64,000 bases of DNA from a virus: the IMG/VR virus record IMGVR_UViG_3300028416_000004, positions 124,001 through 188,000 of that record, one strand, 5' to 3'. The notes under the pieces were generated by a model. It searched no databases and was not told the DNA's origin. It saw only the letters and a list, made by a program, of their open reading frames with translations. A program made the position numbers and the translations under genes. The number at the start of each line of letters is the position of its first letter. The stretch's first letter is position 1. Positions 14,588 to 45,603 of the stretch are shown piece after piece.

Positions 14588-14602
14588 AATATCTTTTGTT
14601 AT

Positions 14603-14609
14603 ATAAATA
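14603..14609 (-). promoter_or_regulatory. TATTTAT late-promoter-like element
   Basis: Sense-strand TATTTAT 15 bases before the fibre gene start. Confidence 0.55.
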
Positions 14610-14627
14610 TTATAAAAATAAAATAAG

Positions 14628-14984
14628 TTATTTAGTTTTCCATAACATTTGTATTGCTAAGATACAAACACAAAGAAATATACATACACCTGTTTTTAAA
14701 TTTATTGGTTCATTGTTGAAATGTGATGTTAAAAATGCAAAAGATATTATACCCAAACAGAAACCTATAATACGTGATGGCCACATAGTACCACCAGTAC
14801 CTAATACAATATACTCAACACCTTTAATAAACATAAAGGAGATTGGGATAGCTATAATATATGGAAACCATGAACTCTTATTCTTAAACCATTCTACTTT
14901 AACAGGCGCATAGATTTGAAACCAAACTAATAGTTGTGCAACAAATAAAAATGCTGACCCAATACCTATCTTAATGTAATCCAT
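14628..14984 (-). CDS. Small multi-pass membrane protein
   Basis: A 118-residue protein with about four hydrophobic segments: IGIGSAFLFVAQLLVWFQIY, PYIIAIPISFMFIKGVEYIV, IIGFCLGIISFAFLTS and CIFLCVCILAIQML. Only short loops separate them, so an inner-membrane location is expected. No catalytic motif is seen and I do not recognise the family; it is not an obvious holin because four segments and no charged tail are atypical. It stands alone with its own TATTTAT element between the fibre gene and the homing-endonuclease gene. Confidence 0.55.
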   Translation of the reverse strand: MDYIKIGIGSAFLFVAQLLVWFQIYAPVKVEWFKNKSSWFPYIIAIPISFMFIKGVEYIVLGTGGTMWPSRIIGFCLGIISFAFLTSHFNNEPINLKTGVCIFLCVCILAIQMLWKTK

Positions 14985-14996
14985 AACATCTTTTTT

Positions 14997-15003
14997 ATAA
15001 ATA
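14997..15003 (-). promoter_or_regulatory. TATTTAT late-promoter-like element
   Basis: Sense-strand TATTTAT 12 bases before the membrane protein start; a second copy lies about 12 bases further upstream. Confidence 0.5.
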
Positions 15004-15027
15004 TATTATAAATATTAAAGAATAAAA

Positions 15028-16503
15028 TTAATATTTTTTAAACTCAAATTTAGCTTTTCCACAATCCCATATTCTATCATAACCTAATTCTTGCATCATT
15101 TGCCATTCTGTTTTATTTTTATCATATATTTCTGGGAATTTTTTTGATATTTTATTTTTTCCAAATAAAAATTTATGAAATCTATTATATTTTGAAACTT
15201 TAGAATTATAATATGTGTAATCTGGATTTATTACTTTTTTCAATTTGAAATCATTTTTAGCATAAACATTATTTTCTTTATCAAAATTCCATCTTAAGTC
15301 TAAAAAAGTAAAAAGATTATTAAATTCATAATTATTTGAAATAAAATAAATAAATTTAGAAAATATTCCAACTACATTATAATTAATATCTGAAGCAAAT
15401 CTTTTTATTTCATAATTTTCATCTTTTATTTTTGAAACCATATTTCTTTTGTTAGATAAAGTAATAACAGAAACTAATTTACCTTCATATAAAGCTCCTA
15501 GTTTTATTTCACTTTTATCATTGCCTTGTATATGATTTTTTTCTAAAAAAATCCCTTTTTCTTTTGATGTTATCTCTTTTATAATACATTTTCTAGCAAA
15601 AATCGATGGCTTATTTTTAGTTTTTAAGATATTTTTTATTTTCTCTTTTACAATATTATTTTTCAAAAACCATTCATCTTCAAAAATATGAATTAATTTA
15701 TAGCCTTTTTTAAAACATATTTCAGATTTACTTAAATGAAAATTTCTATTTTTTTTGCCATAATTTTCTGAATGATAAAGATTTCCATTGAATTCTATAC
15801 AAATTTTTTTGTCTGGTATTATTATATCTATTTCCATACCATTAAAAATTTTTCTATTGTTTTTTAATATTTTTAAATTTAAGTCATTTTCTAAAAAATA
15901 TTTTAATTCTAATTCTGGTTTTGAAACAAAAGTTTTTTCTATTTTTTGAGAAGCTTTTTTTAAAATTTCACCTGCTTTATCTTTAAAAGAACTACTTGCA
16001 TATTGTTCTTTTGGAAATCTTAATTTATATGTTTCAAGGTTTAAATTGTGTTTTTTTAAATGTGTATTTGTTAAATATCTTACTTTTTTATTACATATTT
16101 TACAAGTAACAAAATTACCTTCTTTTATAGTTTCTAAATTTTTTTCTTTATTTTTTATAAAAGTTTTAAATTTTATAGATTCTTCTGGGAAATCTTTTAA
16201 ATATTCTTCGATGTTTTTGTTGTGCACTTTCTTTAAATGTAAAGTATATTGTCCACTTGAATTTTCTATATCTAATGTGTTCCAATTACAATATTTACAT
16301 TTGAATTTATTTTTTTCTTCCTTTTCTATTAAATCAAAATATTTAAAATGCCAATATTCTCCTTTTTCTTTTAAATATTTCCTTCTTTTATAAGAAGATT
16401 CAACTTTGATAGATAGAGTTTTTAAATGATTAGTAATACAACCACTTTTATTTTCTATATCATTAAATTCTTTTTGTGTTATTTTGCAAATTAAAACTTT
16501 CAT
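15028..16503 (-). CDS. Free-standing homing endonuclease, Vsr-like (EDxHD type)
   Basis: A 491-residue lysine-rich protein. The N-terminal 160 residues hold zinc-finger-like units: CKYC with HLKKVH (about 69-94) and CKIC with HLKKHNLNLETYKLRFP (about 133-160), the latter resembling MucR-like DNA-binding motifs of phage nucleases. Residues about 190-290 form a Vsr/EDxHD-type nuclease core: MEIDIIIPDKKICIEFNG, NLYHSENYGKK and LIHIFEDEW. The C-terminal part (ALYEGKLVSVITLSNKRN, YEIKRFASDIN, LDLRWNFD) is the domain often found behind such nucleases. It probably cuts DNA lacking the insert and spreads beside the capsid gene. Its upstream box is a variant, TATTTAC. Confidence 0.75.
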   Translation of the reverse strand: MKVLICKITQKEFNDIENKSGCITNHLKTLSIKVESSYKRRKYLKEKGEYWHFKYFDLIEKEEKNKFKCKYCNWNTLDIENSSGQYTLHLKKVHNKNIEEYLKDFPEESIKFKTFIKNKEKNLETIKEGNFVTCKICNKKVRYLTNTHLKKHNLNLETYKLRFPKEQYASSSFKDKAGEILKKASQKIEKTFVSKPELELKYFLENDLNLKILKNNRKIFNGMEIDIIIPDKKICIEFNGNLYHSENYGKKNRNFHLSKSEICFKKGYKLIHIFEDEWFLKNNIVKEKIKNILKTKNKPSIFARKCIIKEITSKEKGIFLEKNHIQGNDKSEIKLGALYEGKLVSVITLSNKRNMVSKIKDENYEIKRFASDINYNVVGIFSKFIYFISNNYEFNNLFTFLDLRWNFDKENNVYAKNDFKLKKVINPDYTYYNSKVSKYNRFHKFLFGKNKISKKFPEIYDKNKTEWQMMQELGYDRIWDCGKAKFEFKKY

Positions 16504-22770: not shown

Positions 22771-24003
22771 TTAATTTACAGCTACTTCACTTTTTTCTTT
22801 GTGTAATTTCAAATAGCTTTCAACTCTACTTTTCGTTACATTTTTCAAGTCATATTTTTCTTTTACGAAATTATGTAGATTTTCTGAAATTCTTTTTACT
22901 TCTTCTGGGTTGTTAATAAGTTTTTTGATATTTTTATACCAATCTTTATGATTTCTATTATCTTTAACTAAGAAACCATTTTCACCATCTTCAATTAATT
23001 CTTTGTAAACCCCAAAATCTTGAGCAATTAAAACTTTTTTTGTCATTCCAGCCTCAATTATTTTAAGTTCAGATTTGACTTCATTAAATTTATTATGAAC
23101 TAAAGGAGCTAAACAAACATCACAAAAACTATAATGTTTACCATATTGAGTTAATGGCAAAGTCCATCTTCTAACATAATTCAATTTAGAATAATCTTCT
23201 GGATATTTTTCATTTTTAAATTCACTTAAAAACTTTCTATAATCTTCATCAACTATTTTGTAATCACTTGTAAAAATTTTTTCAAAACGATTCCAAACAC
23301 TTTCTTCTGGTTTTATTTTTCTTGTCTTTTTTTGACCAGTTTGTTGATTAATTTCTGTAATGTGACCTCTAGTATCAAAACCACATAAAATAATTTGATA
23401 TTTATCTTTTAAAGAATCGTCTGAATTTAATTTTGCCATAGAAGTTTCCATTAACTTCAAATCTTCTAAATGAGATGAACCACCAATCCAAGAAACTCTA
23501 AGTTTATCAAATTTTTCGGCTGTCTCATCTTGTTTCCACATTTTATGTTCTGAATCAATAGCATTAGGCATAACAATCACATTTTTGTTATATTTAGCTA
23601 TTTCTTTAGCAAAAATATCTGTTGTAGTTGTTACATAATCAGATTTTTTGATAGTTTTAATAATTTTTTCCTCTATATTTTCACTTTTTGCAGCATGATA
23701 CATAGGATGTGTAGTTGGAGGAGACCAATAATCATCAATATCCATAATCATAGTTACACCAGCAGATTTTAAGGTATCAAAAATTTCATCAATTCTTTCT
23801 ATTGGTCCAAAGTGTCTATGAAAGTGTATGATATCATATTTTTTTAAAGATTCTAAATCATTAAAATTAGGACTTAAATCAATTTTAACTTCAAAAGAGT
23901 CTTTATATTTTCTTTGAATTTCTTGTGCAGGCCAAATAGACCTAAAGTGCCCAACTCCAGCCAAATCTGAAGGTTGAAATAATATTTTTATTTTATCAGA
24001 CAT
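22771..24003 (-). CDS. Glycosyltransferase, GT-B fold (GT4-like)
   Basis: A 410-residue GT-B glycosyltransferase. The N-terminal domain begins KIKILFQPSDLAGVGHFRSI and contains YDIIHFHRHFGP and VTMIMDIDDYWSPPTTH. The C-terminal domain carries the donor-site region CDVCLAPLVHNKFNEVKSEL followed by KIIEAGMTKKVLIAQDFGVY and KELIEDGENGFLV, with the expected acidic residue of the EX7E-like motif. It probably transfers a sugar from a nucleotide donor to a phage structural protein or glycan. It sits between head-associated genes and starts 3 bases after the upstream gene, which favours a virion target. Confidence 0.85.
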   Translation of the reverse strand: MSDKIKILFQPSDLAGVGHFRSIWPAQEIQRKYKDSFEVKIDLSPNFNDLESLKKYDIIHFHRHFGPIERIDEIFDTLKSAGVTMIMDIDDYWSPPTTHPMYHAAKSENIEEKIIKTIKKSDYVTTTTDIFAKEIAKYNKNVIVMPNAIDSEHKMWKQDETAEKFDKLRVSWIGGSSHLEDLKLMETSMAKLNSDDSLKDKYQIILCGFDTRGHITEINQQTGQKKTRKIKPEESVWNRFEKIFTSDYKIVDEDYRKFLSEFKNEKYPEDYSKLNYVRRWTLPLTQYGKHYSFCDVCLAPLVHNKFNEVKSELKIIEAGMTKKVLIAQDFGVYKELIEDGENGFLVKDNRNHKDWYKNIKKLINNPEEVKRISENLHNFVKEKYDLKNVTKSRVESYLKLHKEKSEVAVN

Positions 24004-28031: not shown

Positions 28032-28901
28032 ATGAAAAATAAAATTAAAGTCATAGTCCCATTTTATAATCCAGGAAAGTTTCTAGATAGGTGTATAAAT
28101 TCTTTGCTAACTCAAGATTATGATAACTATGAAATTCTTTTTATAGATGATTGTTCTACAGATGATTCTTTTTCTAAAATACCTGCTGTAAAATATAAAG
28201 GTGATAGTGAAGGAAATCTTTTGATGGATGATAATGGAGAACCTATAGTTGAAAGTAAACATCACTTATTAGACAAAACTAATTGTAGCAATATTTTAGC
28301 TTGGAGGTCTGGGGAAAGAATTACTGCTCTTCCTAATTTGCATAACGGAATAATGAGGTTTGCTACAGACTCAGAAGATATTGTTGTAATTGTAAATGGA
28401 GATGATTGGCTTGTTAATAAGAGAGTTTTATCTCAAATTAATGATTTTTATAACAAAAATGAAGAGTGTTGGTTAATGTATGGGAATTCAAAAAGTTCTA
28501 ACAATAGTCAAACATATAATCATAAAGAGTATACAAAAGAAGAATTTGAGGATTTAAGAAAAATACCTTTTATAATACCTCACATAAGAACTTTTAAAGC
28601 TGGTCTTTATAGTAAAATTGCAGAACAAGATGAAAATTTTGAATGTATGAAAGATAAATCAGGCAATTGGTATAAAGTTAAATATGATGTTTGTATGTTT
28701 TTACCCATGTTTGAAATGGCTGGTAAGGAGCATGTGTTCTTTAATAAAGAAGAAATGTATATACACAATGTAGATAATCCAATATCCGATAATAGACTAC
28801 AAAGAGAATTGCAGTTAACTACCTATATTGATGTTAATAGAAAGAAAAGTTTCGAAAAATTAGAAAGTTATAAAACAGAAAAATTAGAAGAAAATGATTA
28901 A
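28032..28901 (+). CDS. Glycosyltransferase family 2-like protein
   Basis: A 289-residue GT-A glycosyltransferase that opens the glycan island. IKVIVPFYNPGKFLDRCINS and LLTQDYDNYEILFIDDCSTD form the nucleotide-sugar-binding start; the metal-binding DxD is probably in IVVIVNGDDWLVNKR near residues 120-130. The later part (IIPHIRTFKAGLYSKI, KYDVCMFLPMFEMAGKEHV) fits the acceptor side. It would act in the cytoplasm on a phage or host glycan acceptor. The next gene overlaps it by 8 bases. Confidence 0.88.
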   Translation: MKNKIKVIVPFYNPGKFLDRCINSLLTQDYDNYEILFIDDCSTDDSFSKIPAVKYKGDSEGNLLMDDNGEPIVESKHHLLDKTNCSNILAWRSGERITALPNLHNGIMRFATDSEDIVVIVNGDDWLVNKRVLSQINDFYNKNEECWLMYGNSKSSNNSQTYNHKEYTKEEFEDLRKIPFIIPHIRTFKAGLYSKIAEQDENFECMKDKSGNWYKVKYDVCMFLPMFEMAGKEHVFFNKEEMYIHNVDNPISDNRLQRELQLTTYIDVNRKKSFEKLESYKTEKLEEND

Positions 28902-29676
28902 TGGTATAATAATTTCACAAAACAATCCAGTACAATTAAACCTTTTATTATCATCTATTGATGTAAATTCAAATGATATTTTTGATTTGAGTGTTGTATA
29001 TACTTCTACAAACTATAGTTATAATTTAGGTTATGAAAAGTTAATCAAGAAATATCCTAAAATTAATTGGGTAGAAGGGGTAGAAGATTTTAAAGAAAAA
29101 ATTTTAGACTTATTAGAAAAGTCAAAAAGTGATTATACTTGTTTCTTTACAGATGACAATATTCTTTTTAGTAAAGTTAAGGAAGAAGATTTGGTTACTC
29201 AATTGAGAGATGATAAAGATACATTTTGTTTCTCTATGAGGTTAGGTAAAAATACTATAAAGTGTCATACGATGGATGCTGATAATATTATAAGACCTAA
29301 CTATGAAGATGATAAGTACATTATGTGGGATTGGCAAGTTCATTATTTGGATTTTGGTTATCCTTTATCTTTAAATGGACATATCTTTAGAACAAAAGAA
29401 ATAAAGAAGTTGACAAAAAAAGTTTCTTTTAGTTCTTTGGAAGATTATGAGAGCGGATTACAAATATTTGATAATTTCCCCAGAAAAAATATGTCTTCTT
29501 TCAAAGAGAGTGTTTTAGTTAGTGGTTTAGCAAAAGAAACTGAAAGTATTGAAAAATTAAACACTTCTTTTATATTGGATGACTTAGAAGTTGACTATAA
29601 AAATATGGATTTTAATCAAATTGAAGGATGTTATCAAGAGTTAGATTTTCCTTTAAACAAATTTGAATTAATTTAA
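28894..29676 (+). CDS. Probable glycosyltransferase (GT-A fold)
   Basis: A 260-residue protein starting inside the previous gene. MINGIIISQNNPVQLNLLLS is a GT-A-like first strand and helix, and KSDYTCFFTDDNILFSKVKE carries a DxD-like acidic pair after a hydrophobic strand. DWQVHYLDFGYPLSLNGHIF with later aromatic residues would line the acceptor site. No closer family is recognised. It is part of the tightly packed island. Confidence 0.65.
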   Translation: MINGIIISQNNPVQLNLLLSSIDVNSNDIFDLSVVYTSTNYSYNLGYEKLIKKYPKINWVEGVEDFKEKILDLLEKSKSDYTCFFTDDNILFSKVKEEDLVTQLRDDKDTFCFSMRLGKNTIKCHTMDADNIIRPNYEDDKYIMWDWQVHYLDFGYPLSLNGHIFRTKEIKKLTKKVSFSSLEDYESGLQIFDNFPRKNMSSFKESVLVSGLAKETESIEKLNTSFILDDLEVDYKNMDFNQIEGCYQELDFPLNKFELI

Positions 29677-29680
29677 TGAT

Positions 29681-29974
29681 ATGAAACCAATAATAGTTCA
29701 CTATATAAATATAGGAAATTTAGATAATGTAGAAGTTTCAGAATATATTAATAATATAAAACAAACTTTTACATATAATGAAGAATATCATAGTATTTTT
29801 ATTCCTATTAGAAACAAAGAAACATATATTGACTGTTTAAATCCTATTGTATTACCAGAAGAAGAAAGAGAAAAATATATTAAAAAAATAGAAAATCTTA
29901 AAAAAAATGTAGAGGAAATGTTGAAAGAATTTCCTTTTTTAAACAAAAATGAACTTTTAATCGAAAAGAAATGA
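29681..29974 (+). CDS. Small hypothetical protein in glycan island
   Basis: A 97-residue protein, MKPIIVHYINIGNLDNVEVS then YHSIFIPIRNKETYIDCLNP, with a helical C-terminal tail. Similar small proteins occur in other phages near structural and glycan genes, but no function is known to me. It overlaps the next gene by four bases (ATGA), so translation is probably coupled. Confidence 0.55.
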   Translation: MKPIIVHYINIGNLDNVEVSEYINNIKQTFTYNEEYHSIFIPIRNKETYIDCLNPIVLPEEEREKYIKKIENLKKNVEEMLKEFPFLNKNELLIEKK

Positions 29975-30684
29975 AAAAATTTTCAGAAAGAAATATTCAA
30001 GAAGGTTGGAGTGTAATAGTACCAGCTTATCAGGCACAAAAATATATTGAAAGTTGTTTAGATTCAATTCAAAATCAAACATTATTTCAAAAAAAAGATA
30101 ATTATGAAATTTTATTAGGTATAGATGGTTGTTTAGATACATTAAATGAAGTAAAGAAAATAAAAAATAAATACAAAAACTTAAAAGTTATAAATTTCAA
30201 AGAGAATAAAGGTACTTTTGTAACTTTAAACTCTTTACTTAATAATGTAAATTTTGACAAAACTATAACTGTTGGTGCTGATGATATTCAAATAAATAAT
30301 TTGTTAGAAACTGTAGAGCCTCACTTAAAAGAAAATGACTTAGTTTTGTATCATTGTCAAAATTTTACTGAAGATGGTAAGAATAGTTTAAGTCCAAAAG
30401 AAATGGAAGGTATAGCTGCTGTCAAATGGAGCGTATGGAAAGAAATAGGTGGTTATAAAGCTTGGAAAGTGGGTGCTGATAGTGATTTTGAAATGAGAAC
30501 TAAAAAATTTAAGAGATATATAATCAGAAAACCTCTTTATTTAAGAAGAATTCATTCTGAATCCTTAACTCAAAAAAGAGAAACTGGTTATGGTAGTGAA
30601 TATAGAAAAAGTATCACTAAAAAATTAGCTAAAGATTTTGAATATATTGAACCAGAAATGAATGAAAATTTTGAAATAATATGA
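29971..30684 (+). CDS. Glycosyltransferase family 2-like protein
   Basis: A 237-residue GT2-type glycosyltransferase. GWSVIVPAYQAQKYIESCLD and IQNQTLFQKKDNYEILLGID form the donor-binding start; FDKTITVGADDIQINNLLET carries the DxD-like motif at about residue 95. GIAAVKWSVWKEIGGYKAWK and GADSDFEMRTKKF form the typical acceptor-side ED-like region. The start overlaps the preceding stop (ATGA), and the stop overlaps the next start. Confidence 0.9.
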   Translation: MKKFSERNIQEGWSVIVPAYQAQKYIESCLDSIQNQTLFQKKDNYEILLGIDGCLDTLNEVKKIKNKYKNLKVINFKENKGTFVTLNSLLNNVNFDKTITVGADDIQINNLLETVEPHLKENDLVLYHCQNFTEDGKNSLSPKEMEGIAAVKWSVWKEIGGYKAWKVGADSDFEMRTKKFKRYIIRKPLYLRRIHSESLTQKRETGYGSEYRKSITKKLAKDFEYIEPEMNENFEII

Positions 30685-31349
30685 AATTAAAAGTAGTAGG
30701 AATTGCAAGTTTGCCTGAAAGAGAAGAATGCCTTAGAGATACTGTAAATTCTCTATATAATCAAGTAGATAAAATTATAGTAGGATTAAACAATTATAAA
30801 GAAGTGCCTAGTTTCTTAAAAAAAGAAAAAATAGAAAGTTATTTATTGGATAACTCCTTAGGAGATGCTGCTAAATTTTACAAAGTAGATGAATATAAAG
30901 GTCATTTTTATTTTGCGTGTGATGATGATTTGATATATAAAAAAAATTATATTGAGCATTTATTAAAAAACAACAACCCAGTAATTGGTATTCATGCTTC
31001 AATAATAAAATATCCTTGTAAAAATTATTATAAAGACAGAATAGTTTTGCATTCAAATTCTGCATTAGACAAAGATACTGAAGTAGATGTTATAGGTACT
31101 GGTTGTTGTAGAATAGATTTAGAAGTTTTAGATTTAAAATTAAAAGATTTTAAAACACCAAATAAAGCAGATATATATTTATCGGATATTTGCAAAAAAC
31201 AAAATGTAAAAATGATAAGTATTGCAAGAAAAGCTAAAGAGTTTTTTATATACAATCCAAAAATGAAAAATAAATATACAATATATGATGATTTACACTC
31301 TAAAGAAACACCTATACATTGTGAAATAATTAAAAAATGGGAAAAATAA
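30681..31349 (+). CDS. Probable glycosyltransferase (GT-A fold)
   Basis: A 222-residue protein. KLKVVGIASLPEREECLRDT and YNQVDKIIVGLNNYKEVPSF give the GT-A N-terminus, and GHFYFACDDDLIYKKNYIEH the DxD motif near residue 75. VDVIGTGCCRIDLEVLDL follows and resembles the acceptor region of small phage glycosyltransferases. Overlaps the previous gene by four bases; the GT25 gene follows after one base. Confidence 0.75.
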   Translation: MKLKVVGIASLPEREECLRDTVNSLYNQVDKIIVGLNNYKEVPSFLKKEKIESYLLDNSLGDAAKFYKVDEYKGHFYFACDDDLIYKKNYIEHLLKNNNPVIGIHASIIKYPCKNYYKDRIVLHSNSALDKDTEVDVIGTGCCRIDLEVLDLKLKDFKTPNKADIYLSDICKKQNVKMISIARKAKEFFIYNPKMKNKYTIYDDLHSKETPIHCEIIKKWEK

Positions 31350-31350
31350 A

Positions 31351-31941
31351 ATGATAAATTTAGAAAAAACAAAAACTTTTGTTATAAACTTAGATAGAAG
31401 AGTAGATAGAATATCTGAAATAAAATTACCTTTAAAATGGGAAAGGTTTTCAGCAACTGATGGCAAAGAAAGTTTCTCAAATAAACCAATGTTTGAAAGA
31501 GGTTGGAGAGGATGTAGAGATTCGCATATAAGATTGTTGGAAAAAGTAAAAGAGTTAGATGAAGATTTTTTTATAATTTTTGAAGATGATGTTGAAGTTG
31601 GTGAAAATTTTATTAATGATTTAGAAAAAATAACTAAAACTTTACCAGAAAATTGGGATTTATTATTTTTAGGTGGTTGGAATGTTGGAGATAAAATTAA
31701 ATATAATGATTTTTTATATTTAGCTAAAAAAGTATATTGTACACACGCTTTTATTATTAGAAAAGAGATTGTTGAAAAAATGTTAAACAAATTTAAAGAA
31801 AGAGAATTTAAAGTTGATGTGTTATTATCTGAATTATTACCTAACATTAATTCTTTTATATGCAATCCAACAATAGCATGGCAAAAGCCAGGATTTTCAG
31901 ATATAGAAAATATTATAACTAATAATAAACATTTAAGATAA
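31351..31941 (+). CDS. Glycosyltransferase family 25 (LPS-type)
   Basis: A 196-residue GT25 protein. The family signature is clear: KTFVINLDRRVDRISEIK, then WERFSATDGKE, RGWRGCRDSHIRLLEKVKEL and DFFIIFEDDVEVGENFIND with the EDD metal site near residue 75, followed by NWDLLFLGGWNVGDKI and VYCTHAFIIRKEIV. Known members add galactose or glucose to lipooligosaccharide or to collagen hydroxylysine. Here the acceptor may be a phage protein glycan or a host surface glycan. Confidence 0.9.
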   Translation: MINLEKTKTFVINLDRRVDRISEIKLPLKWERFSATDGKESFSNKPMFERGWRGCRDSHIRLLEKVKELDEDFFIIFEDDVEVGENFINDLEKITKTLPENWDLLFLGGWNVGDKIKYNDFLYLAKKVYCTHAFIIRKEIVEKMLNKFKEREFKVDVLLSELLPNINSFICNPTIAWQKPGFSDIENIITNNKHLR

Positions 31942-31943
31942 TT

Positions 31944-32543
31944 ATGCCAATATCACATAAAAATAAATTAATTTTTATACATATCCCAAAGAATGCTGGG
32001 ACATCAATAACTGACTCAGAAGGGATGAATTTTTCTTTTAAAGGTCATCATTTGCCTTCTTTTTATAAAAGTAACTTTCCAAATCAATGGGAAAATTATA
32101 TAAAGTTTTGTGTTATTAGAAATCCTTGGGATAGAGTAGTGTCTAATTATGAATACGCTAGAATGCCTGAAAGTCATTGGCATTCAGTTAGTGGTAATTC
32201 TATATATGGAGCTCACCCAGATTATAAAAATTTAATAAAACTTAACTTTAAAGAAACTTTACAAGCTTTTAAAGAAGATAATAACTTTTTAAAACATCAA
32301 GGTTGGGAATCTCAAAATAAGTATATTTATAATAATGAAGGTTTGATGTTATTGGATTACGTTTTTAAATTAGAAGATATTGAGTTAGATTTAAAATTTA
32401 AAAAAATAATTCCTAACTTAAGTGTTAAAAATGTAAGTAAAAAAAGTTATAAAAAATATAAAGATTATTATGATAATGAAACTAAAGATATTGTTTCTGA
32501 GATATATGCTAAAGATATAGAATTATTTAAATTTAAATTTTAA
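31944..32543 (+). CDS. Sulfotransferase family protein
   Basis: A 199-residue sulfotransferase. The 5'-phosphosulfate loop is KLIFIHIPKNAGTSITDS (residues 8-25), and the 3'-phosphate site is KFCVIRNPWDRVVSNYEYAR near residue 55-75. The C-terminal half (HQGWESQNKYIYNNEG, DYVFKLEDIELDLKFKKI) matches carbohydrate sulfotransferases of the Sulfotransfer_2 type. It would transfer sulfate from PAPS to a sugar hydroxyl. An APS kinase gene to make PAPS lies 1.5 kb downstream in the same operon. Confidence 0.9.
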   Translation: MPISHKNKLIFIHIPKNAGTSITDSEGMNFSFKGHHLPSFYKSNFPNQWENYIKFCVIRNPWDRVVSNYEYARMPESHWHSVSGNSIYGAHPDYKNLIKLNFKETLQAFKEDNNFLKHQGWESQNKYIYNNEGLMLLDYVFKLEDIELDLKFKKIIPNLSVKNVSKKSYKKYKDYYDNETKDIVSEIYAKDIELFKFKF

Positions 32544-33391
32544 TGAAAAAAATATTTTTTATAAACAATTGGAATGAAGACAATCGAAAACTTTTAGAAA
32601 GATATTCCAAACAAACTCCAAATAGTGATGGTGTTTGGAAAGATTTGGTTGGAACAATAAATATGAATGAAGCTGATTATTTTATTGTCTTAGAAGTTTT
32701 TGCAACAAATACTCCAATTGAAAAAACAATTTTTATAAAAAGAGAACCAAATTATATAAGACCTTATAGAAATTTAAAATATAAACATATAGTAGATTAT
32801 AATTTAAAAAATACTGGTGTCACTTATTGGTTGAATAAATCTTATAAACAATTAACAGAATTAAAATATCCAAATAAAAGTAAAAAGATTAGTTGTGTTG
32901 CCTCTTCAAAACATACTCACAGAAATGAATATATTAAAAATTTATTTAAAACAAAAAATAATATTGAATTATATGGAAAGGGTCACAATGAAAAATATTA
33001 TGGCGATAATTATAAGGGCATTTTAAATTATGATGGAAATTGTAAATTTGAAGGTTTAATTGATTATGAATATACTATTGTTATGGAAAATTCACAACAA
33101 AAAAATTATTGGACTGAAAAGTTAGCTGATGCTTATTTGTCTTGGTGTATGCCAATTTATTGGGGGTGTCCAAATATAGAAAATTACTTTCCAAAAGATA
33201 GTTATAGATTAATTGATATTAATAGTAGTAATCCTTTAGATGATATAAATGAAATTATTAAAAAACCTTTAACAAAAACTGAAAAAAATTCACTAAAAGA
33301 AGCAAGGATGTTAATACTCAATGAATATAATATATGGGAAGTAATATATAAAAAAATAAAAGAAATTGAAAATAAAAAAATAATAATTTAA
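32543..33391 (+). CDS. Glycosyltransferase family 10 (fucosyltransferase-like)
   Basis: A 282-residue GT10 protein. The C-terminal GT-B domain shows the family pattern: KISCVASSKHTHRNEYIKNL, then YEYTIVMENSQQKNYWTEKL, ADAYLSWCMPIYWGCPNIEN and YFPKDSYRLIDINSS. The MEN...YWTEK segment binds the GDP-sugar in alpha-1,3-fucosyltransferases. The start codon overlaps the stop of the sulfotransferase (TAATG). GDP-fucose would have to come from the host. It could use another GDP sugar. Confidence 0.88.
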   Translation: MKKIFFINNWNEDNRKLLERYSKQTPNSDGVWKDLVGTINMNEADYFIVLEVFATNTPIEKTIFIKREPNYIRPYRNLKYKHIVDYNLKNTGVTYWLNKSYKQLTELKYPNKSKKISCVASSKHTHRNEYIKNLFKTKNNIELYGKGHNEKYYGDNYKGILNYDGNCKFEGLIDYEYTIVMENSQQKNYWTEKLADAYLSWCMPIYWGCPNIENYFPKDSYRLIDINSSNPLDDINEIIKKPLTKTEKNSLKEARMLILNEYNIWEVIYKKIKEIENKKIII

Positions 33392-33405
33392 ATAATAATA
33401 ATAAT

Positions 33406-34029
33406 ATGAAGTTTTATAGTCAATATGGTCAAGATAAATGGTTATATGAAAAATATTTTAAAAATAAAAAAAATGGTGTATTCTTAGAGATAGGTGCAGA
33501 TGATGGAATAGATAAAAGTAATACAAAATTTTTTGAAGATATTGGATGGTATGGGATGTGTATAGAACCCAGCCCTAAACGCTTTAAATTACTTGAGAAT
33601 AATAGAACATGTATATGTGAAAATTACGCACTATCTAATAAGGTTGATGAAGTTGATTTTATGGATATATCAGGGTGGGGCAAAGGTTTAAGTGGAATAG
33701 TTGACTCTTATGATGAAAAACATAAAAAAAGAATTGAGCAAGAAATAAAAAATCCTAAAAATAAAGGAATTGAAATTATAAAAGTTAAAACAGAATTGTT
33801 AAATAATTTATTAAATAAGCATAATATTAATGAGATTGATTTTTGCACTATAGATACTGAAGGTGGTGAAATTGATATAATAAAAAGTATAGATTTCGAC
33901 AAAGTGAAAATAAAATTAATTATTGTTGAAAATAATTATAACAATACTTTAATTCAAAAAATATTATCAAATAATGGATATCAGTTGATAAAAAAAATAA
34001 ATGTTGATGATATATATGAAAAAAAATAA
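33406..34029 (+). CDS. FkbM family methyltransferase
   Basis: A 207-residue SAM-dependent methyltransferase of the FkbM type. YSQYGQDKWLYEKYFKNKKN and GVFLEIGADDGIDKSNTKFF form the SAM-binding motif I (residues about 24-45), GWYGMCIEPSPKRFKLLENN is motif II, and DFCTIDTEGGEIDIIKSIDF then IIVENNYN form the catalytic-side strands. FkbM enzymes O-methylate sugars and other small molecules; beside glycosyltransferases a sugar methylation is the natural inference. Confidence 0.92.
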   Translation: MKFYSQYGQDKWLYEKYFKNKKNGVFLEIGADDGIDKSNTKFFEDIGWYGMCIEPSPKRFKLLENNRTCICENYALSNKVDEVDFMDISGWGKGLSGIVDSYDEKHKKRIEQEIKNPKNKGIEIIKVKTELLNNLLNKHNINEIDFCTIDTEGGEIDIIKSIDFDKVKIKLIIVENNYNNTLIQKILSNNGYQLIKKINVDDIYEKK

Positions 34030-34038
34030 TATAAAACA

Positions 34039-34614
34039 ATGAATAAAAATATAATTTCTCAAAATTTTTTAATAACTCAAAAAGAAAGAATAGAAATATT
34101 AAAACAAAAACCTCAAGTTATTTGGTTAACTGGATTATCTGGTTCTGGTAAATCAACTATAGCAAATGAGTTAGCATCTAAATTGCATAATGAAGGTAAA
34201 TTAGCTTATATTTTAGATGGTGACAATGTTAGAATGGGTCTTAATAAAGATTTGAGTTTTTCTGATGATGATAGAAAGGAAAATATTAGAAGAATAGCTG
34301 AAGTTGCAAATTTAATGATTGATTTAGGTGCTATAGTTATCACAGCTTTCATTTCGCCATTTGAAAATGAAAGACAAATGGCTAAAGAGATAATAGGCAA
34401 AGATAATTTTGTTGAAATTTATATTAAAACACCATTAGAAACTTGTGAAGAGCGTGACCCAAAAGGGTTGTATAAAAAGGCTAGAGCTGGAGAAATACCT
34501 ATGTTTACAGGTATAGATTCACCTTATGAAGAACCTAAAAACCCTAATATGTTTATTAGAACAGACAAGATGAGTATAGAAGATAGTGTAGAATTTATTT
34601 ATAAAAATTTATGA
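34039..34614 (+). CDS. cysC: Adenylylsulfate (APS) kinase
   Basis: A 191-residue APS kinase with every family motif: the P-loop GLSGSGKS (about residues 35-42), LDGDNVRMGLNKDLSF, DRKENIRRIAEVANL, AFISPFENERQMAKEI and ETCEERDPKGLYKKARAGEI then FTGIDSPYEEP. It phosphorylates APS to PAPS, the donor for the sulfotransferase encoded in the same operon. The reaction needs APS made by an ATP sulfurylase, from the host or possibly from the nucleotidyltransferase encoded next (four-base ATGA overlap). Confidence 0.95.
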   Translation: MNKNIISQNFLITQKERIEILKQKPQVIWLTGLSGSGKSTIANELASKLHNEGKLAYILDGDNVRMGLNKDLSFSDDDRKENIRRIAEVANLMIDLGAIVITAFISPFENERQMAKEIIGKDNFVEIYIKTPLETCEERDPKGLYKKARAGEIPMFTGIDSPYEEPKNPNMFIRTDKMSIEDSVEFIYKNL

Positions 34615-35078
34615 GTTGGGAAAAGAAAAATCATGGAGGTGAACCCACCAAAAACAAAGATAAGAAATATGCGATATTCGTTGGTAGATATCAACCATAC
34701 CATTATGGGCATATCAATTTAATTCAACAAAAGTTGGATGAGGGTGTTCCAGTACTTATTATGGTTAGAGATATTGAACCAGATGAAAAGAATCCTTTTA
34801 CAACAGAACAAACTGTAAGTATGATTGAAAAGTATCATAATTCTAAAGGTGATGATGTAAAGGTAATGATTATACCTGATATTGAATCGGTTAATTATGG
34901 TAGAGGTGTAGGATACGAGATTAATGAATACAGACCAACAGAAGAGATTGGGTTTATTTCAGCCACTAAGATTAGGGAATCAATTAAAGAAGGTAATAAC
35001 TCTTGGAGAGAGATGGTTGATGAATCAATCCAGGGAGATGTTGAAAATTATTTATATGAAACTAGAAATAAGTCATAA
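34611..35078 (+). CDS. Nucleotidyltransferase (HxGH family)
   Basis: A 155-residue nucleotidyltransferase of the cytidylyltransferase/adenylyltransferase superfamily. YAIFVGRYQPYHYGHINLIQ has the HxGH signature (HYGH near residue 36-39), DIEPDEKNPFTTEQTVSMIE follows, and IGFISATKIRESIKEG holds the C-terminal ISxTxxR-like motif. The natural substrate cannot be read from sequence; NMN and cytidylyl donors are known for relatives. Coupling to APS kinase (ATGA overlap) raises the possibility of an ATP-sulfurylase-like step, which is speculation. Confidence 0.8.
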   Translation: MSWEKKNHGGEPTKNKDKKYAIFVGRYQPYHYGHINLIQQKLDEGVPVLIMVRDIEPDEKNPFTTEQTVSMIEKYHNSKGDDVKVMIIPDIESVNYGRGVGYEINEYRPTEEIGFISATKIRESIKEGNNSWREMVDESIQGDVENYLYETRNKS

Positions 35079-35274
35079 AAGACATATTGCCAAAACTATA
35101 ACTTGGAGATTATTAGGAACAATAGATACTATAATAATTAGTTGGTTTTTGACAAATAATTGGATGATTGGTTTTTCAATTGGAGGTGTTGAAGTTATAA
35201 GTAAAATGATTCTTTATTATATTCATGAGAGATTATGGTATAAATCTAACTTTGGAATTAAAAGAAATAAATAA
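35056..35274 (+). CDS. DUF2061 membrane protein
   Basis: A 72-residue protein when started at the ATG at 35056 (MKLEISHKRHIAKTITWRLL), which overlaps the previous gene by 23 bases. It has the DUF2061 pattern: HIAKTITWRLLGTIDTIIIS, FLTNNWMIGFSIGGVEVISK and ILYYIHERLWYKSNFG, giving two membrane helices. In bacteria I recall DUF2061 genes beside sulfate-activation genes, but the function is unknown. Earlier in-frame starts would only add residues that overlap the nucleotidyltransferase coding region. Confidence 0.8.
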   Translation: MKLEISHKRHIAKTITWRLLGTIDTIIISWFLTNNWMIGFSIGGVEVISKMILYYIHERLWYKSNFGIKRNK

Positions 35275-39465: not shown

Positions 39466-40674
39466 ATGGAAACAGTTTCTCAACAAATTTCAGAAGAAGA
39501 AATGTTAAAACAAAGAGAAAAAGCAATTTCAAGTCTTATTTCTAAAATAGAAAAAGAAGAAAATACAGTATATATATACTGTCCTGCTATGAACACTCCT
39601 AGTGGAGGTATCTCTGTTTTATTCGAACACGCAAAAATATTAAAAGATGCTGGAAAAAGTGTGGCAATCATTTATGAACCACAACAAAATAATAAAGCAT
39701 CATTAGAAGCTACTCAAAAAGCTAGATTAAAAGGTGCTAAAGACCCAGTAATTATTTTTGATAAATTTAACCCAACTTGGTTAGGTGATTTAAAAGAAGA
39801 AATTGATGTTAGATGTTTAGCTGAAGGAGTTCTTACTTATACTGATGGAACGACTGAAACAGTAGAATCATTAAAAATGAATCCAGAAGACATCTTAATT
39901 ATACCTGAAGGATTTCCTAATATTATGGAAAACACTTCTCAATTACCTTGTAGAAGAGTTGTTATGGCTCAAAGTTGGTATTATGTTTTATCTGGTATGA
40001 AGGTTGGTCAAAAATGGCAACACTTTGGAATTAAAGATGTAATTTCTGTTTCAGATGGTATTACAGAATATTTAAATACTATTATGCCAGGTTTAAATAT
40101 TAAAAATTATAAACAAGGTATTGATAGAAAATTGTTTAATGTCCCAGAAAAAATTTCTGATAAAGCTCCAATGATTTCCTATATGCCTGGTAGAGGGCCA
40201 GAGTCTCAAATGAAAACTAATACTGTTATTAGAACATTTTATGAATTTTATCCACATTATAGATGGATTCGTTTCGCTCCTCTTCAAGGTTTAACTAAAG
40301 AACAATTTGCACAACAGTTAAAAAATTCTGCTATCGCATTATATACTGATGAAGTTGCTGGATTTGGTACATTACCTTTAGAAGCTATGGCTAGCGGTAC
40401 TCACGTTGTTGGTTGGACTCCTTTTGGAAGTAAAGAATATGTGAATGAAAAAAATGGATTTTGGGCTGTTAACGGAGATGTTTTCCAATTGGCTGAATTG
40501 ATTGGTATGGCTTTGGATAGATATTTTTCTGGAGTTTTAGATTCAGAAGAAATTCAAAAAGAATACGAAAGAACAATTTCAGAGTATACAAGAGAAAAAG
40601 AAGTAGAATCTGTATTAAATATTTATAACACTATTAAAAATGAAAGAATTGAAGAATTTAGAAACCTTAAATAA
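39466..40674 (+). CDS. Glycosyltransferase, GT-B fold (GT4-like)
   Basis: A 402-residue GT-B glycosyltransferase. The N-terminal domain begins at about residue 35 with VYIYCPAMNTPSGGISVLFE. The C-terminal donor domain carries APLQGLTKEQFAQQLKNSAI, then ALYTDEVAGFGTLPLEAMAS and GTHVVGWTPFGSKEYVNEKN, with the GFGTLPLEA acidic motif typical of GT4. Codon use here is richer in highly used codons than in the island genes, suggesting strong expression. The next glycosyltransferase starts 35 bases inside its end. Confidence 0.88.
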   Translation: METVSQQISEEEMLKQREKAISSLISKIEKEENTVYIYCPAMNTPSGGISVLFEHAKILKDAGKSVAIIYEPQQNNKASLEATQKARLKGAKDPVIIFDKFNPTWLGDLKEEIDVRCLAEGVLTYTDGTTETVESLKMNPEDILIIPEGFPNIMENTSQLPCRRVVMAQSWYYVLSGMKVGQKWQHFGIKDVISVSDGITEYLNTIMPGLNIKNYKQGIDRKLFNVPEKISDKAPMISYMPGRGPESQMKTNTVIRTFYEFYPHYRWIRFAPLQGLTKEQFAQQLKNSAIALYTDEVAGFGTLPLEAMASGTHVVGWTPFGSKEYVNEKNGFWAVNGDVFQLAELIGMALDRYFSGVLDSEEIQKEYERTISEYTREKEVESVLNIYNTIKNERIEEFRNLK

Positions 40675-41590
40675 TAAAAATTTATTAGTTGTATTACCAA
40701 TTAATAAAATTGAAGAAGAAACTTTAAGTGAATCTTTATATAATTTAGCAGAACAAACAAATCCTACGGATGTTTTGATTTTAGTTTCTGAAAATTTAGA
40801 AAAAGATACTTTAGAAAAAATTTCTGAAATAGCTAACAAACCTTATAAAAGAGCTTTTGAAACAGATGATAAAGGAAATCCTTTAACAAAAACTTTAACT
40901 TCAGAAAAAACATTGAACTTTGCTATTCAGACAACTACATCAACTAGTTTTAACTCTGTTTTTAACGATGCTTTTAATATTGCTAACGAAAATGGATATA
41001 AGTGGTTTTCTGTAATTGATAAAGATGATGTTGTTGAAGAAAGTTGGGTCTATAATTTTGATAGATTCTCTACTGAAAAAGAAGACGTATCTGTATTTTT
41101 CCCAATTGTAAGACAAGTTTCAGCTGGAAATATGACTGGACATTTAAATGAAGCTACTTGGCTTGAAGGTAAAGTTGAAGTTTCTGGGCAAGCTGACTTA
41201 CAATTATTAATGTCTTGGAATTGCTTATCACCAACAGGTTGTATGTTGAAAGTTGAAGATATTAAAGAATACAGTGAAGAAAGAGAAGGTAAATATTATC
41301 CTTTTAAGGAAAATATGAGTATCGCTTCTTCATATGAATTTTTCTTAAGAATGATTTATGAAGATTTAAAAACTTATACTATTCCAAGATATGGTTATCA
41401 AATGAGAATGGATGTTAATAGCTCAACTTTTGATAGATTCTCTTCAAAAATCCCTTCAAATATAACTACAATATCTAAGGAAAATGGAGGTTTGACTGCT
41501 AAAGAGATTGGCTTTTGGATGGAACAAGCTAAAAGTGAATACTTTATGTCTGAAGATAGAGAAATAGAATACGAAGAAACAACCGCCTAA
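40640..41590 (+). CDS. Glycosyltransferase family 2-like protein
   Basis: A 316-residue GT-A glycosyltransferase that overlaps the previous gene by 35 bases. KNLLVVLPINKIEEETLSES and NLAEQTNPTDVLILVSENLE give the donor-binding start, GYKWFSVIDKDDVVEESWVY the DxD motif near residue 130, and LLMSWNCLSPTGCMLKVEDI with SIASSYEFFLRMIYEDLK the acceptor side. The pair may act in sequence on a common acceptor. A terminator follows. Confidence 0.85.
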   Translation: MKELKNLETLNNKNLLVVLPINKIEEETLSESLYNLAEQTNPTDVLILVSENLEKDTLEKISEIANKPYKRAFETDDKGNPLTKTLTSEKTLNFAIQTTTSTSFNSVFNDAFNIANENGYKWFSVIDKDDVVEESWVYNFDRFSTEKEDVSVFFPIVRQVSAGNMTGHLNEATWLEGKVEVSGQADLQLLMSWNCLSPTGCMLKVEDIKEYSEEREGKYYPFKENMSIASSYEFFLRMIYEDLKTYTIPRYGYQMRMDVNSSTFDRFSSKIPSNITTISKENGGLTAKEIGFWMEQAKSEYFMSEDREIEYEETTA

Positions 41591-43011: not shown

Positions 43012-45603
43012 ATGCCATTTAAAAAACCTTTAAATTCACTATTAACAGAAAGTCAAAATAAAGCACTTTCTAAATTAAATTCGCTTAACACTTATGTTAC
43101 AGCACCTAAAATTCAATTTCCAAATTTAAAGAAAAGTCAACAAATAAGCACTTTTGATTTATCAACTAAATTTTTAGATGCAATATCTGGGCCAGGTACT
43201 ACTGATGCTGTTATGAATCAGTTTTTAAGGAAAGTTTTTGCTACTTATGGTGAAAATGAATTTTTATTAGAAGACATAATTATAAAAGGTTTAGCTAAAT
43301 CTTTAGATGTAAGACAAATTAATTTAGCTCCACAAGTAAAAGATACTACAGTTTCAGATTCATCTGATTCAAATTCTTCTACACAAGAATTGACTAATGT
43401 TGTAGAGTATGAATTTTCTGAATTTCAAGTAAATGGAGCTAGGTATGCAAATGTTTATAGTAATATACCAGATAGACTTCCTACTGTAAAAGTAACAAAA
43501 TTTTCAGCAGATACTCAGATTACAGTTGATGAATTTATAAAAAAAGTAAAAACAGAATTTAATAATGTTGGTTACTATTCAGAAGAGTTTGACATTAACT
43601 ATCCACCTACTGGAACTTTAAAAGCAGAAGTTCCTTATCTGTATGGAGATGTGTCTGGGAATATTAAATCTTTAAGTGAAGACAAATCCTTAAATGGTGC
43701 AAAAATAGAAATTGTTGGAGCTAATCCGCCTTTGGAATTACTTTCTGATGAAAGTGGTAATTATTTAATAAAGAAATTGAAATCAGGAACCTATGTTCTT
43801 AAAGCGTCTTTAGATGGATATAAAGAAGCTTTAAATAACATAGAAATTGATAAAAATAAAAATATAGAAAATATATTAAATTTTGAATTAGAAATTGATA
43901 GTAGTTTTTCTGGAAATAGTCAATCTTATAGTACTGGTGTTACTAATTCTAATTCAAGTGGAAATACTGAAAATTTAGTATATAGTTACAGTTTAGTTGC
44001 AGAACCTTTAACTTATGAATTTAAAAAACAAAAAATACCTGCAAATGCAACAAGAGTTGAAGATATTACTAGTTTAATTTTAACTGTTACTAATAATAAA
44101 GGTCTCCCAACTGCATCTATAACAATTGGACCAATAGATGGTGATGAATTTGTTGATTATCAATCTTTAGATGATAAATATTATGATTGGGTAAGTGACT
44201 TTTCTGACTCTAATGAATTAGTTGTAGATGGAGTTACATATCCTGGAAATACTGATTCGAATTATGTATTTTTAGTTACAAATAATGCTAGTTTACCAAG
44301 TTATAAATATGTTGATAATGCAGATTTATCAGAAAGCTACATTGAAGTCTTCCTAAGATTTGATGATAGCTTAAATGAAGAAAGAGTTATAAGTGGAACA
44401 ACTTATCCACCTCAAGGTGCTGAATTTGTCCCTACCCAATCAAATGTTGGTTCTTCTACGTTTATACCAAATCAAGACTCAACTGATTCAAATAACACAT
44501 CAAATCAAACTGTTGGAGTTATAGAATCAGATATTCAAATTGATGAAAATTTATTATTAACAAGCTTAAGTTCTGTAACTGAGGATTTTAGGAATCAAAT
44601 AATAAACACATTTTCATTTAGAGTAAATCCAGATGATATAGGATTAACAAATGAACAATATCTAACAAAATACTTAAGACCTTCATTATCAATGGGTAAA
44701 AGAGCTTTAGTTGCTCAAATTATAAAAATGATTTTTGGACCTAAAGAAAAAATAAACCCAGACTCAGAAGTTCAAGAAAAACTATTAAATGCTGCTGCTT
44801 GTGGAGAAAAGATGTATTCTATTTCTAATAATCCAGGAGTAACTGAACAAGAATTAGAATATAATAGAGTTGAACTAAAAAGACAGTTAGAGGCTGGAAA
44901 AATTGAATTAATAGTTTCTTGTCAAAAAGTTGAAATAAGCTTACCAGAAAATTTTGAAGATGAATTTGATTTAGTTTCTTCTGAAGACTTAGGAATATCT
45001 GAAAGCCAAAGACCTAATCCAGCAGAATCTTTTACATTATTAAATAATTATGTAAAATCAGAAATGCAAAGACAAAGAAATGAAGAAGATTCTACACAAG
45101 TAAAACAAAGTTTTTTTCAAATAGTTATTGAAAAAATAATGCAATATATAAGTGTTTCTTTATCTGTTAGTCCTGAAATGAATCAAGTATTTGGTGTTAT
45201 AAATGCTGAGTTAATAAAAACTGGACAAGAACCTTTGAGCTCTAAAGAAATTTTATCAAGTCCTTGTGAAATTTGTGAATCTTGTAAAAGTGGAAATGAA
45301 AAAGATTTTGAGCAAAAATCAGCATTTTCTAAGAGTATAATAAATTCTTTATATTCTATCGTTTTATCTATGCTTATAAGAAGGTTAGTTTCTGAAGCTA
45401 AATCAAAAATAGCAAAATTAATACAAGAAAAAGCAAAAGAGAAAATCTTAAAATTAATAAAGAGACAAAAAGAACAATTTGACTTTTTAAAGAAAATTCA
45501 AAACGCTTCTGAAAAAGTTAGTAAAGCAACAGAATATAAAGAAAGGTTAAATTCTAGTGGATTAAAAGATGTTTTTAATTTTAGAAAAGAAGATAATCAA
45601 TAA
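43012..45603 (+). CDS. Large baseplate-region structural protein with Ig-like carboxypeptidase-regulatory domain
   Basis: An 863-residue protein. Residues about 205-300 are a carboxypeptidase-regulatory-like (Ig-fold) domain: YLYGDVSGNIKSLSEDKSLN, GAKIEIVGANPPLELLSDES, GNYLIKKLKSGTYVLKASLD. Low-complexity serine/asparagine linkers surround it (about 295-320 and 480-510). The C-terminal third is helical with a CEICESCKSGNEKD cysteine cluster near 760 and a basic coiled-coil end (AKEKILKLIKRQKEQFDFLK). No enzyme motif. It is placed with baseplate genes, so a structural baseplate or tail role is inferred. Confidence 0.65.
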   Translation: MPFKKPLNSLLTESQNKALSKLNSLNTYVTAPKIQFPNLKKSQQISTFDLSTKFLDAISGPGTTDAVMNQFLRKVFATYGENEFLLEDIIIKGLAKSLDVRQINLAPQVKDTTVSDSSDSNSSTQELTNVVEYEFSEFQVNGARYANVYSNIPDRLPTVKVTKFSADTQITVDEFIKKVKTEFNNVGYYSEEFDINYPPTGTLKAEVPYLYGDVSGNIKSLSEDKSLNGAKIEIVGANPPLELLSDESGNYLIKKLKSGTYVLKASLDGYKEALNNIEIDKNKNIENILNFELEIDSSFSGNSQSYSTGVTNSNSSGNTENLVYSYSLVAEPLTYEFKKQKIPANATRVEDITSLILTVTNNKGLPTASITIGPIDGDEFVDYQSLDDKYYDWVSDFSDSNELVVDGVTYPGNTDSNYVFLVTNNASLPSYKYVDNADLSESYIEVFLRFDDSLNEERVISGTTYPPQGAEFVPTQSNVGSSTFIPNQDSTDSNNTSNQTVGVIESDIQIDENLLLTSLSSVTEDFRNQIINTFSFRVNPDDIGLTNEQYLTKYLRPSLSMGKRALVAQIIKMIFGPKEKINPDSEVQEKLLNAAACGEKMYSISNNPGVTEQELEYNRVELKRQLEAGKIELIVSCQKVEISLPENFEDEFDLVSSEDLGISESQRPNPAESFTLLNNYVKSEMQRQRNEEDSTQVKQSFFQIVIEKIMQYISVSLSVSPEMNQVFGVINAELIKTGQEPLSSKEILSSPCEICESCKSGNEKDFEQKSAFSKSIINSLYSIVLSMLIRRLVSEAKSKIAKLIQEKAKEKILKLIKRQKEQFDFLKKIQNASEKVSKATEYKERLNSSGLKDVFNFRKEDNQ

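Follow-up and report, generated by a model that had tools for sequence, protein, structure and literature searches.

The operon analyzed here occupies positions 28032-35274 on the plus strand of a 64,000-base stretch (hereafter, the window), which covers bases 124001-188000 of the 232,514-base virus record IMGVR_UViG_3300028416_000004. It comprises twelve tightly packed open reading frames (ORFs), and their predicted products make it fairly likely that the phage possesses a sulfoglycan operon with a sulfate-activation cassette of its own, leading from sulfate through adenosine 5'-phosphosulfate (APS) and 3'-phosphoadenosine 5'-phosphosulfate (PAPS) to a sulfated glycan. In the proposed route, a small nucleotidyltransferase with an HxGH motif (hereafter, NTase) would join inorganic sulfate to ATP with the formation of APS, standing in for ATP sulfurylase. 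The APS kinase (CysC), judging by its family, would then phosphorylate APS with ATP to PAPS, and the Sulfotransfer_2 enzyme would move the sulfate from PAPS to its presumable acceptor, a glycan. By family, the latter would be assembled by the glycosyltransferases of the GT2, GT25 and GT10 types and methylated by the FkbM enzyme, while DUF2061, a small membrane protein, might aid the cassette. The sulfated product would be borne by the virion or by the infected cell.

A candidate ATP sulfurylase beside the APS kinase

The NTase (gene 11, 34611..35078, plus strand) was recognized by PF01467 (CTP_transf_like, E 4e-8) and belongs to a family of proteins 113-160 aa in length. Across 32 diverse members, the positions G25 R26 Q28 P29 H31 G33 H34, R53 D54 I55, N61 P62, IPDI, GRG.GY and R122 were invariant or nearly so; the HxGH active site is accompanied by a second motif, ISxTxxR, with H31, G33, H34 and R122 being invariant and ISAT nearly so. 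In profile and structure searches the archaeal nicotinamide mononucleotide (NMN) and phosphopantetheine adenylyltransferases (NMNAT and PPAT, respectively) were nearest, and the AlphaFold model of the protein (predicted local distance difference test score, pLDDT, 84) resembles the same archaeal enzymes. Due to this fold kinship the NTase should transfer adenylate from ATP. The window NTase matched neither the Sat family (PF01747), which gave no match at the NTase of NTase-bearing genomes either, nor CysD (TIGR02039) among the NCBIfam models, and an ATP sulfurylase of the Sat or CysD type was thus rejected.

Being kin to these adenylyltransferases, the NTase might also be an ordinary NMN-type enzyme or the maker of another adenylylated metabolite; PAPS would then derive from host APS, and the NTase-kinase pair would serve another two-step pathway, i.e., adenylylation followed by 3'-phosphorylation of a non-sulfate product. 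Indeed, PPAT and dephospho-CoA kinase perform the same chemistry on a different substrate. However, the NTase scored far below the NMNAT family cut-offs (51 vs 127 bits for PRK01153 and 45 vs 181 bits for TIGR01527). In the profile alignment, the segment preceding ISxTxIR, which holds NMN in NMNAT, is about 23 residues long in the NTase and 47 in 1ej2, so that the NTase is about 24 residues short in the acceptor region, with HxGH and ISATxIR retained and the invariant GRG.GY motif in place of the NMN-recognition stretch. The predicted shortened region fits a smaller acceptor. Considering these differences, and that the NTase is fused to true APS kinases, replaces CysD in Flavobacteriales and has sulfotransferase genes adjoining its cassette (see below), we regard an NMN-type function as unlikely.

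Searches of viral sequences yielded 15 loci with the APS kinase and 80 with the NTase as a query. With pairing defined as a fusion or a same-strand kinase gene no more than 800 bases away, the NTase was paired with a gene for APS kinase or its short, APS-kinase-like form in 78 of the 80 viral loci, and in the two others it sits at the contig end. The kinase partner possesses the APS-kinase lid in 22 of these 78 loci, and DUF2061 was found near the NTase in 61 of the 80. Fusions were also detected, namely CysC-NTase (loci L024-L026), short kinase-NTase (L050) and DUF2061-CysC (L048). The conserved core is CysC-NTase-DUF2061, shared by phages in which its flanks differ greatly. The preliminary description of this DNA had listed both the HxGH nucleotidyltransferase and DUF2061, which are indeed present, but had overlooked their role in the cassette, where the NTase constantly accompanies the APS kinase and probably supplies it with APS.

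The recurrence of this core amid different flanks, together with the fusions, hardly agrees with a mixed island of genes acquired from cells (morons), brought together by chance and sharing no pathway. T4-like phages do collect glycosyltransferases, and the genes around the cassette differ between phages; yet the window genes overlap tightly and all run in one direction, and such an origin appears highly improbable.

Among cellular genomes, the NTase adjoins the kinase or is fused to it in approximately 62 of 80 loci (hand count). The fusions have the order APS kinase-NTase in group II archaea, Acidobacteria and Nomurabacteria, and the reverse order in Omnitrophota and Roizmanbacteria; fusions of Sat and APS kinase are likewise known in both domain orders. 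Neither Sat nor CysD was detected in 24 of 26 NTase-bearing genomes from several phyla. A sharper comparison came from a single set of 298 genomes of Flavobacteriales; the NTase is encoded in eight of them. In all eight the APS kinase gene is immediately adjacent to it, and CysD and Sat were found in none of them. Other Flavobacteriales with an APS kinase possess CysD in 110 cases out of 111, the lone exception (G262) having only a partial kinase match at a contig edge. The difference in CysD absence (8/8 vs 1/111) corresponds to a Fisher p value of 1.1e-11. In several members of this Flavobacteriales clade, CysQ-like genes adjoin the NTase-kinase pair, and in one locus (L111) the genes of CysC, NTase and CysQ (the latter above the curated cut-off) are followed by flippase-like and sulfotransferase-like genes. 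The product of cysQ removes 3'-phosphoadenosine 5'-phosphate (PAP).

An APS kinase gains little unless something supplies APS, which makes the NTase a natural candidate for the ATP sulfurylase. Its constant link with the APS kinase and its occurrence in genomes without CysD and Sat make it likely that the NTase represents an unrecognized NMNAT-like ATP sulfurylase. In the tree of 46 NTase sequences, viral and cellular proteins were interleaved, well-supported branches forcing at least five changes between them, and the window NTase fell within a mixed group with marine Bacteroidetes. It is somewhat more likely than not that the NTase founds a third family of ATP sulfurylases, spread by phages, in many cases forming a compact PAPS synthetase by fusion with APS kinase and occurring in marine Bacteroidetes, Marinimicrobia, Omnitrophota, group II archaea and others, and that T4-like phages use it to coat their virions or the infected cells with sulfated glycans.

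Proposed PAPS formation and sulfate transfer, and opposing evidence

The APS kinase of the window (gene 10, 34039..34614, plus strand) is complete, as was initially described. It matched PF01583 (E 5e-69) and scored 261.5 bits against the equivalog TIGR00455 (cut-off 138.7), its nearest solved relatives are true APS kinases (E 1e-54), and its motifs, i.e., the P-loop, DGDNVR and the lid KGLYKKARAG..FTGIDSPYEEP, are intact. The carbohydrate-type sulfotransferase (Sulfotransfer_2, gene 7, 31944..32543, plus strand) matched PF03567 with 38.4 bits (cut-off 22) and the galactose-3-O-sulfotransferase family phrog_3347 with E 2e-14. Both PAPS-binding motifs are present in it, the 5'-phosphosulfate-binding one (5'-PSB) as HIPKNAGTS and the 3'-phosphate-binding one (3'-PB) as FCVIRNPWDRVVSNY within RNPWDRVVSNY; in RNPWDRVVS, the residues R, N, P, D, R and S are invariant in alignment A4. 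Judging by these matches and motifs, the two assignments are almost certainly correct. In some viral loci, the APS kinase has a C-terminal extension which reads as a phosphatase domain of the haloacid dehalogenase (HAD) type (L018, 9995-10960, with a weak Pfam HAD match; L033, L045 and L048).

The search of viral contigs with the sulfotransferase as a seed recovered only the second copy of the same phage, the family being too divergent for such a search. A homologue with 49% identity is encoded inside a glycan cluster of the huge phage LR756500, and its position among sugar genes supports a glycan as the acceptor of the sulfotransferase. From its family and genomic setting, a sulfated glycan can be named with good confidence as the probable product. 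The LR756500 cluster (L191, LR756500.1, 6374-13709) contains, besides the sulfotransferase gene, those recognized by eye as encoding a methyltransferase and GT2, pyruvyltransferase-like and 3-deoxy-D-manno-octulosonic acid (KDO) synthesis-like proteins.

The sulfotransferase families beside the cassette vary. A PF13469 gene lies directly upstream in many loci, while in L048 and L057/L058 a PF03567 sulfotransferase gene is inserted between those of CysC and NTase. Of 24 NTase-bearing virus records sampled, 16 contain a Pfam sulfotransferase; 15 of their 19 matches are no farther than 3.5 kb from the NTase, the chance being 5% per match (nominal p 4e-16, related records having been counted individually). 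The explanation that CysC is conserved because of a sulfotransferase of the window type was rejected, as it is the NTase that is the constant partner. A survey of related phages for co-occurring cysC and sulfotransferase genes, suggested in the preliminary description, found them as neighbors. Near the cassette of L018, a 259-aa protein (14457-15236, minus strand) contains a GKTGSRTL motif and appears sulfotransferase-like by eye; it showed a weak match to NKWYS and none to Pfam sulfotransferase models, and possibly represents an unrecognized sulfotransferase family.

Alternatively, the cassette could be an auxiliary sulfur-assimilation module which provides PAPS for cysteine synthesis of the host in the course of infection, the sulfotransferase neighborhood being incidental, all the more so as viral cysH (PAPS reductase) is an established auxiliary gene of phages (PMC7785012, PMC9301287). 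However, no PF01507 proteins (PAPS reductase or CysD-type) were found in the 16 related phage records tested, and assimilation via PAPS reductase was rejected on this ground. Considering also that the APS kinase gene shares an operon with those of glycosyltransferases and a sulfotransferase, and that sulfotransferases cluster with the NTase-kinase pair in other phages, an assimilatory role is very unlikely. The same absence of PAPS reductase, the intact motifs and the sulfotransferase-APS kinase neighbors of related phages support the initial proposal that PAPS is supplied to a carbohydrate sulfotransferase of the glycan operon.

Several circumstances weigh against the proposed sulfation route. 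By profile and by fold, the NTase is closest to NMN and phosphopantetheine adenylyltransferases, not to ATP sulfurylases. In 56 of the 78 paired viral loci the kinase is a short lidless form of 142-179 aa; these forms matched PF01583 in both examples tested, and the one compared with the equivalog model fell below its cut-off. Many of the cellular genomes used are incomplete metagenome-assembled or single-amplified ones (MAGs or SAGs). The eight NTase-bearing Flavobacteriales are syntenic and 75-96% identical, i.e., they form a single clade, and the NTase-for-CysD contrast in this order may reflect one replacement event. A very long branch carries the NTases of SAR11 and SAR86, which are accompanied by divergent kinases and have no sulfotransferase nearby; these pairs may act on another substrate and were excluded from the support. 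Both the lidless kinases and the location of the SAR11 pairs outside sulfation loci would suit an NMN-type NTase. Furthermore, 8 of the 24 sampled viral records are without a Pfam sulfotransferase, though many of them are fragments, and the window sulfotransferase gave a weak AlphaFold model (pLDDT 62), with no fold match at E<0.05, several of its top matches, all at E>0.05, being sulfotransferases. Finally, the proposed route is drawn from sequences and genome context. In Pelagibacter HTCC9565 (L132, 4123-8351), one of the divergent kinase-NTase pairs was observed near a gene resembling dimethylsulfoniopropionate (DMSP) demethylase (dmdA) and a Rieske-type oxygenase gene, with Sat encoded in the same genome.

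Relation to known sulfate-activating systems

The proposed cassette resembles the bifunctional PAPS synthetases (animal PAPSS and the fusions of Sat with APS kinase), in which an HxGH-type sulfate-activating domain is likewise paired or fused with APS kinase, in either order, and PAPS is formed for sulfotransferases; in contrast to them, the phage-type partner is a small NMNAT-like protein of 130-155 aa without a match to Sat (PF01747). The CysDN-CysC system of Bacteroidetes and other bacteria represents the same pathway, and in Flavobacteriales the NTase takes the place of CysD beside the APS kinase, with CysQ nearby. However, CysD, with its PAPS_reductase-like fold, is absent from the NTase cassette, being replaced by one small HxGH enzyme. 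In rhizobia, NodPQ and NodH combine a dedicated PAPS supply with a carbohydrate sulfotransferase, encoded together for the sulfation of one glycan, the Nod factor. This coupling is shared by the window operon, but NodPQ is an ATP sulfurylase of the CysDN type and the system is cellular rather than phage-borne. The GT2 and GT25 genes of the window, with their PHROG matches, are similar to phage modules of O-antigen conversion and glycosylation; to our knowledge, classical GtrABC systems include neither sulfate activation nor a sulfotransferase. Viral cysH is another phage gene acting around PAPS, but its product consumes PAPS for reduction, whereas the window cassette would make it for transfer.

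Neither a phage sulfotransferase or PAPS operon nor an NMNAT-like ATP sulfurylase was found in the open-access literature searched, subscription papers and preprints lying outside this search. The preliminary description had named sulfated phage glycans as not an established theme, to its knowledge. The pathway is known, its phage setting appears new as far as checked, and in the enzyme that activates sulfate we apparently have a new variant. As far as we know, only two families of ATP sulfurylases, Sat and CysDN, are generally recognized. A third and very small one, if confirmed, would change the genomic reading of sulfate activation, since NTase-bearing organisms at present look unable to make PAPS, and the compact PAPS synthetase would be a useful tool for in vitro sulfation. 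Phages would then encode every step leading from sulfate to a sulfated sugar, and such a surface chemistry is undescribed for them in the literature searched; evasion of superinfection, receptor masking and particle stability are possible roles of such a glycan.

Operon layout and the phage

The tightly packed twelve-gene plus-strand arrangement reported in the preliminary description was reproduced in our analysis: the spacings between consecutive ORFs are -8, 4, -4, -4, 1, 2, -1, 14, 9, -4 and -23 bases, the three 4-base overlaps being of the ATGA type. A second contig (L012) carries the operon again, its proteins being 100% identical, so an assembly accident confined to one record does not account for it.

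Nine genes passed the Pfam cut-offs, which upheld the assignments to GT2, GT25, GT10, sulfotransferase, FkbM, APS kinase, NTase and DUF2061 made initially; genes 2 and 5 are glycosyltransferase-like by motif only. The operon starts with a GT2 glycosyltransferase gene (gene 1, 28032..28901; PF00535, E 1.2e-15, 58.3 bits at the cut-off of 23.3), followed by gene 2 (28894..29676), GT-A-like by eye with a TDDN motif. Gene 3 (29681..29974) encodes a small protein of 97 aa with sub-threshold matches only. Gene 4 (29971..30684) encodes another GT2 enzyme (PF00535, E 8e-14), and gene 5 (30681..31349) a protein with a DDD motif. No family was found above the cut-off for genes 2, 3 and 5 in Pfam and PHROG, nor in NCBIfam for genes 2 and 5. 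Gene 6 (31351..31941) belongs to GT25 (PF01755, E 5e-14; phrog_2835, glucosyltransferase, E 2e-15). Downstream of the sulfotransferase gene, gene 8 (32543..33391) encodes a fucosyltransferase-type GT10 enzyme (PF00852, E 8e-13, 48.9 vs 23.9 bits), which contains the ENS..YWTEKL motif and matched solved alpha-1,3-fucosyltransferases (E 2e-9). The GT10 gene is thus present, and fucosylation of the glycan is, as in the preliminary description, no more than possible. Gene 9 (33406..34029) encodes the FkbM-family methyltransferase (PF05050, E 3e-20, 73.3 vs 22.7 bits; TIGR01444 above the cut-off), and gene 12 (35056..35274) the 72-aa DUF2061 protein (PF09834, E 2e-21, 76.5 vs 23.1 bits). The true start of the latter is most likely 35056 and not 34924, as given in the ORF list, since its homologues begin there and are of that size. 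All these genes are on the plus strand.

The window encodes a T4-type major head protein, a tail sheath and a baseplate wedge, by which the 232-kb record is identified as a T4-like myophage; it is a large phage of marine type. Its major head protein is closest to those of an uncultured huge phage and the Flavobacterium phage immuto (34-35% identity), and a nucleotide search against named phages gave no match. A marine Bacteroidetes host is a reasonable guess, because homologues of the NTase with 71-76% identity are present there.

The T4-type late promoter core TATAAATA occurs in 48 copies in the window (1-64000) vs 24 expected, a number not reached in any of 100 shuffles, but only 8 copies precede an ORF start by 40 bases or less. 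Late-promoter control of the operon was set aside, as only CATAAATA, overlapping the start codon, is present at its beginning.

Further glycosyltransferase-like genes lie outside the operon at 22771-24003, 39466-40674 and 40640-41590 of the window (PHROG glycosyltransferase, GT1 and GT2-like), so the glycan machinery of the phage exceeds the operon. At 43012-45603, an 863-aa protein with carboxypeptidase-regulatory-like (Ig-like) domains is encoded, a possible surface protein and, hence, a possible glycan acceptor. A homing-endonuclease-like gene (15028-16503) directly adjoins that of the major head protein.

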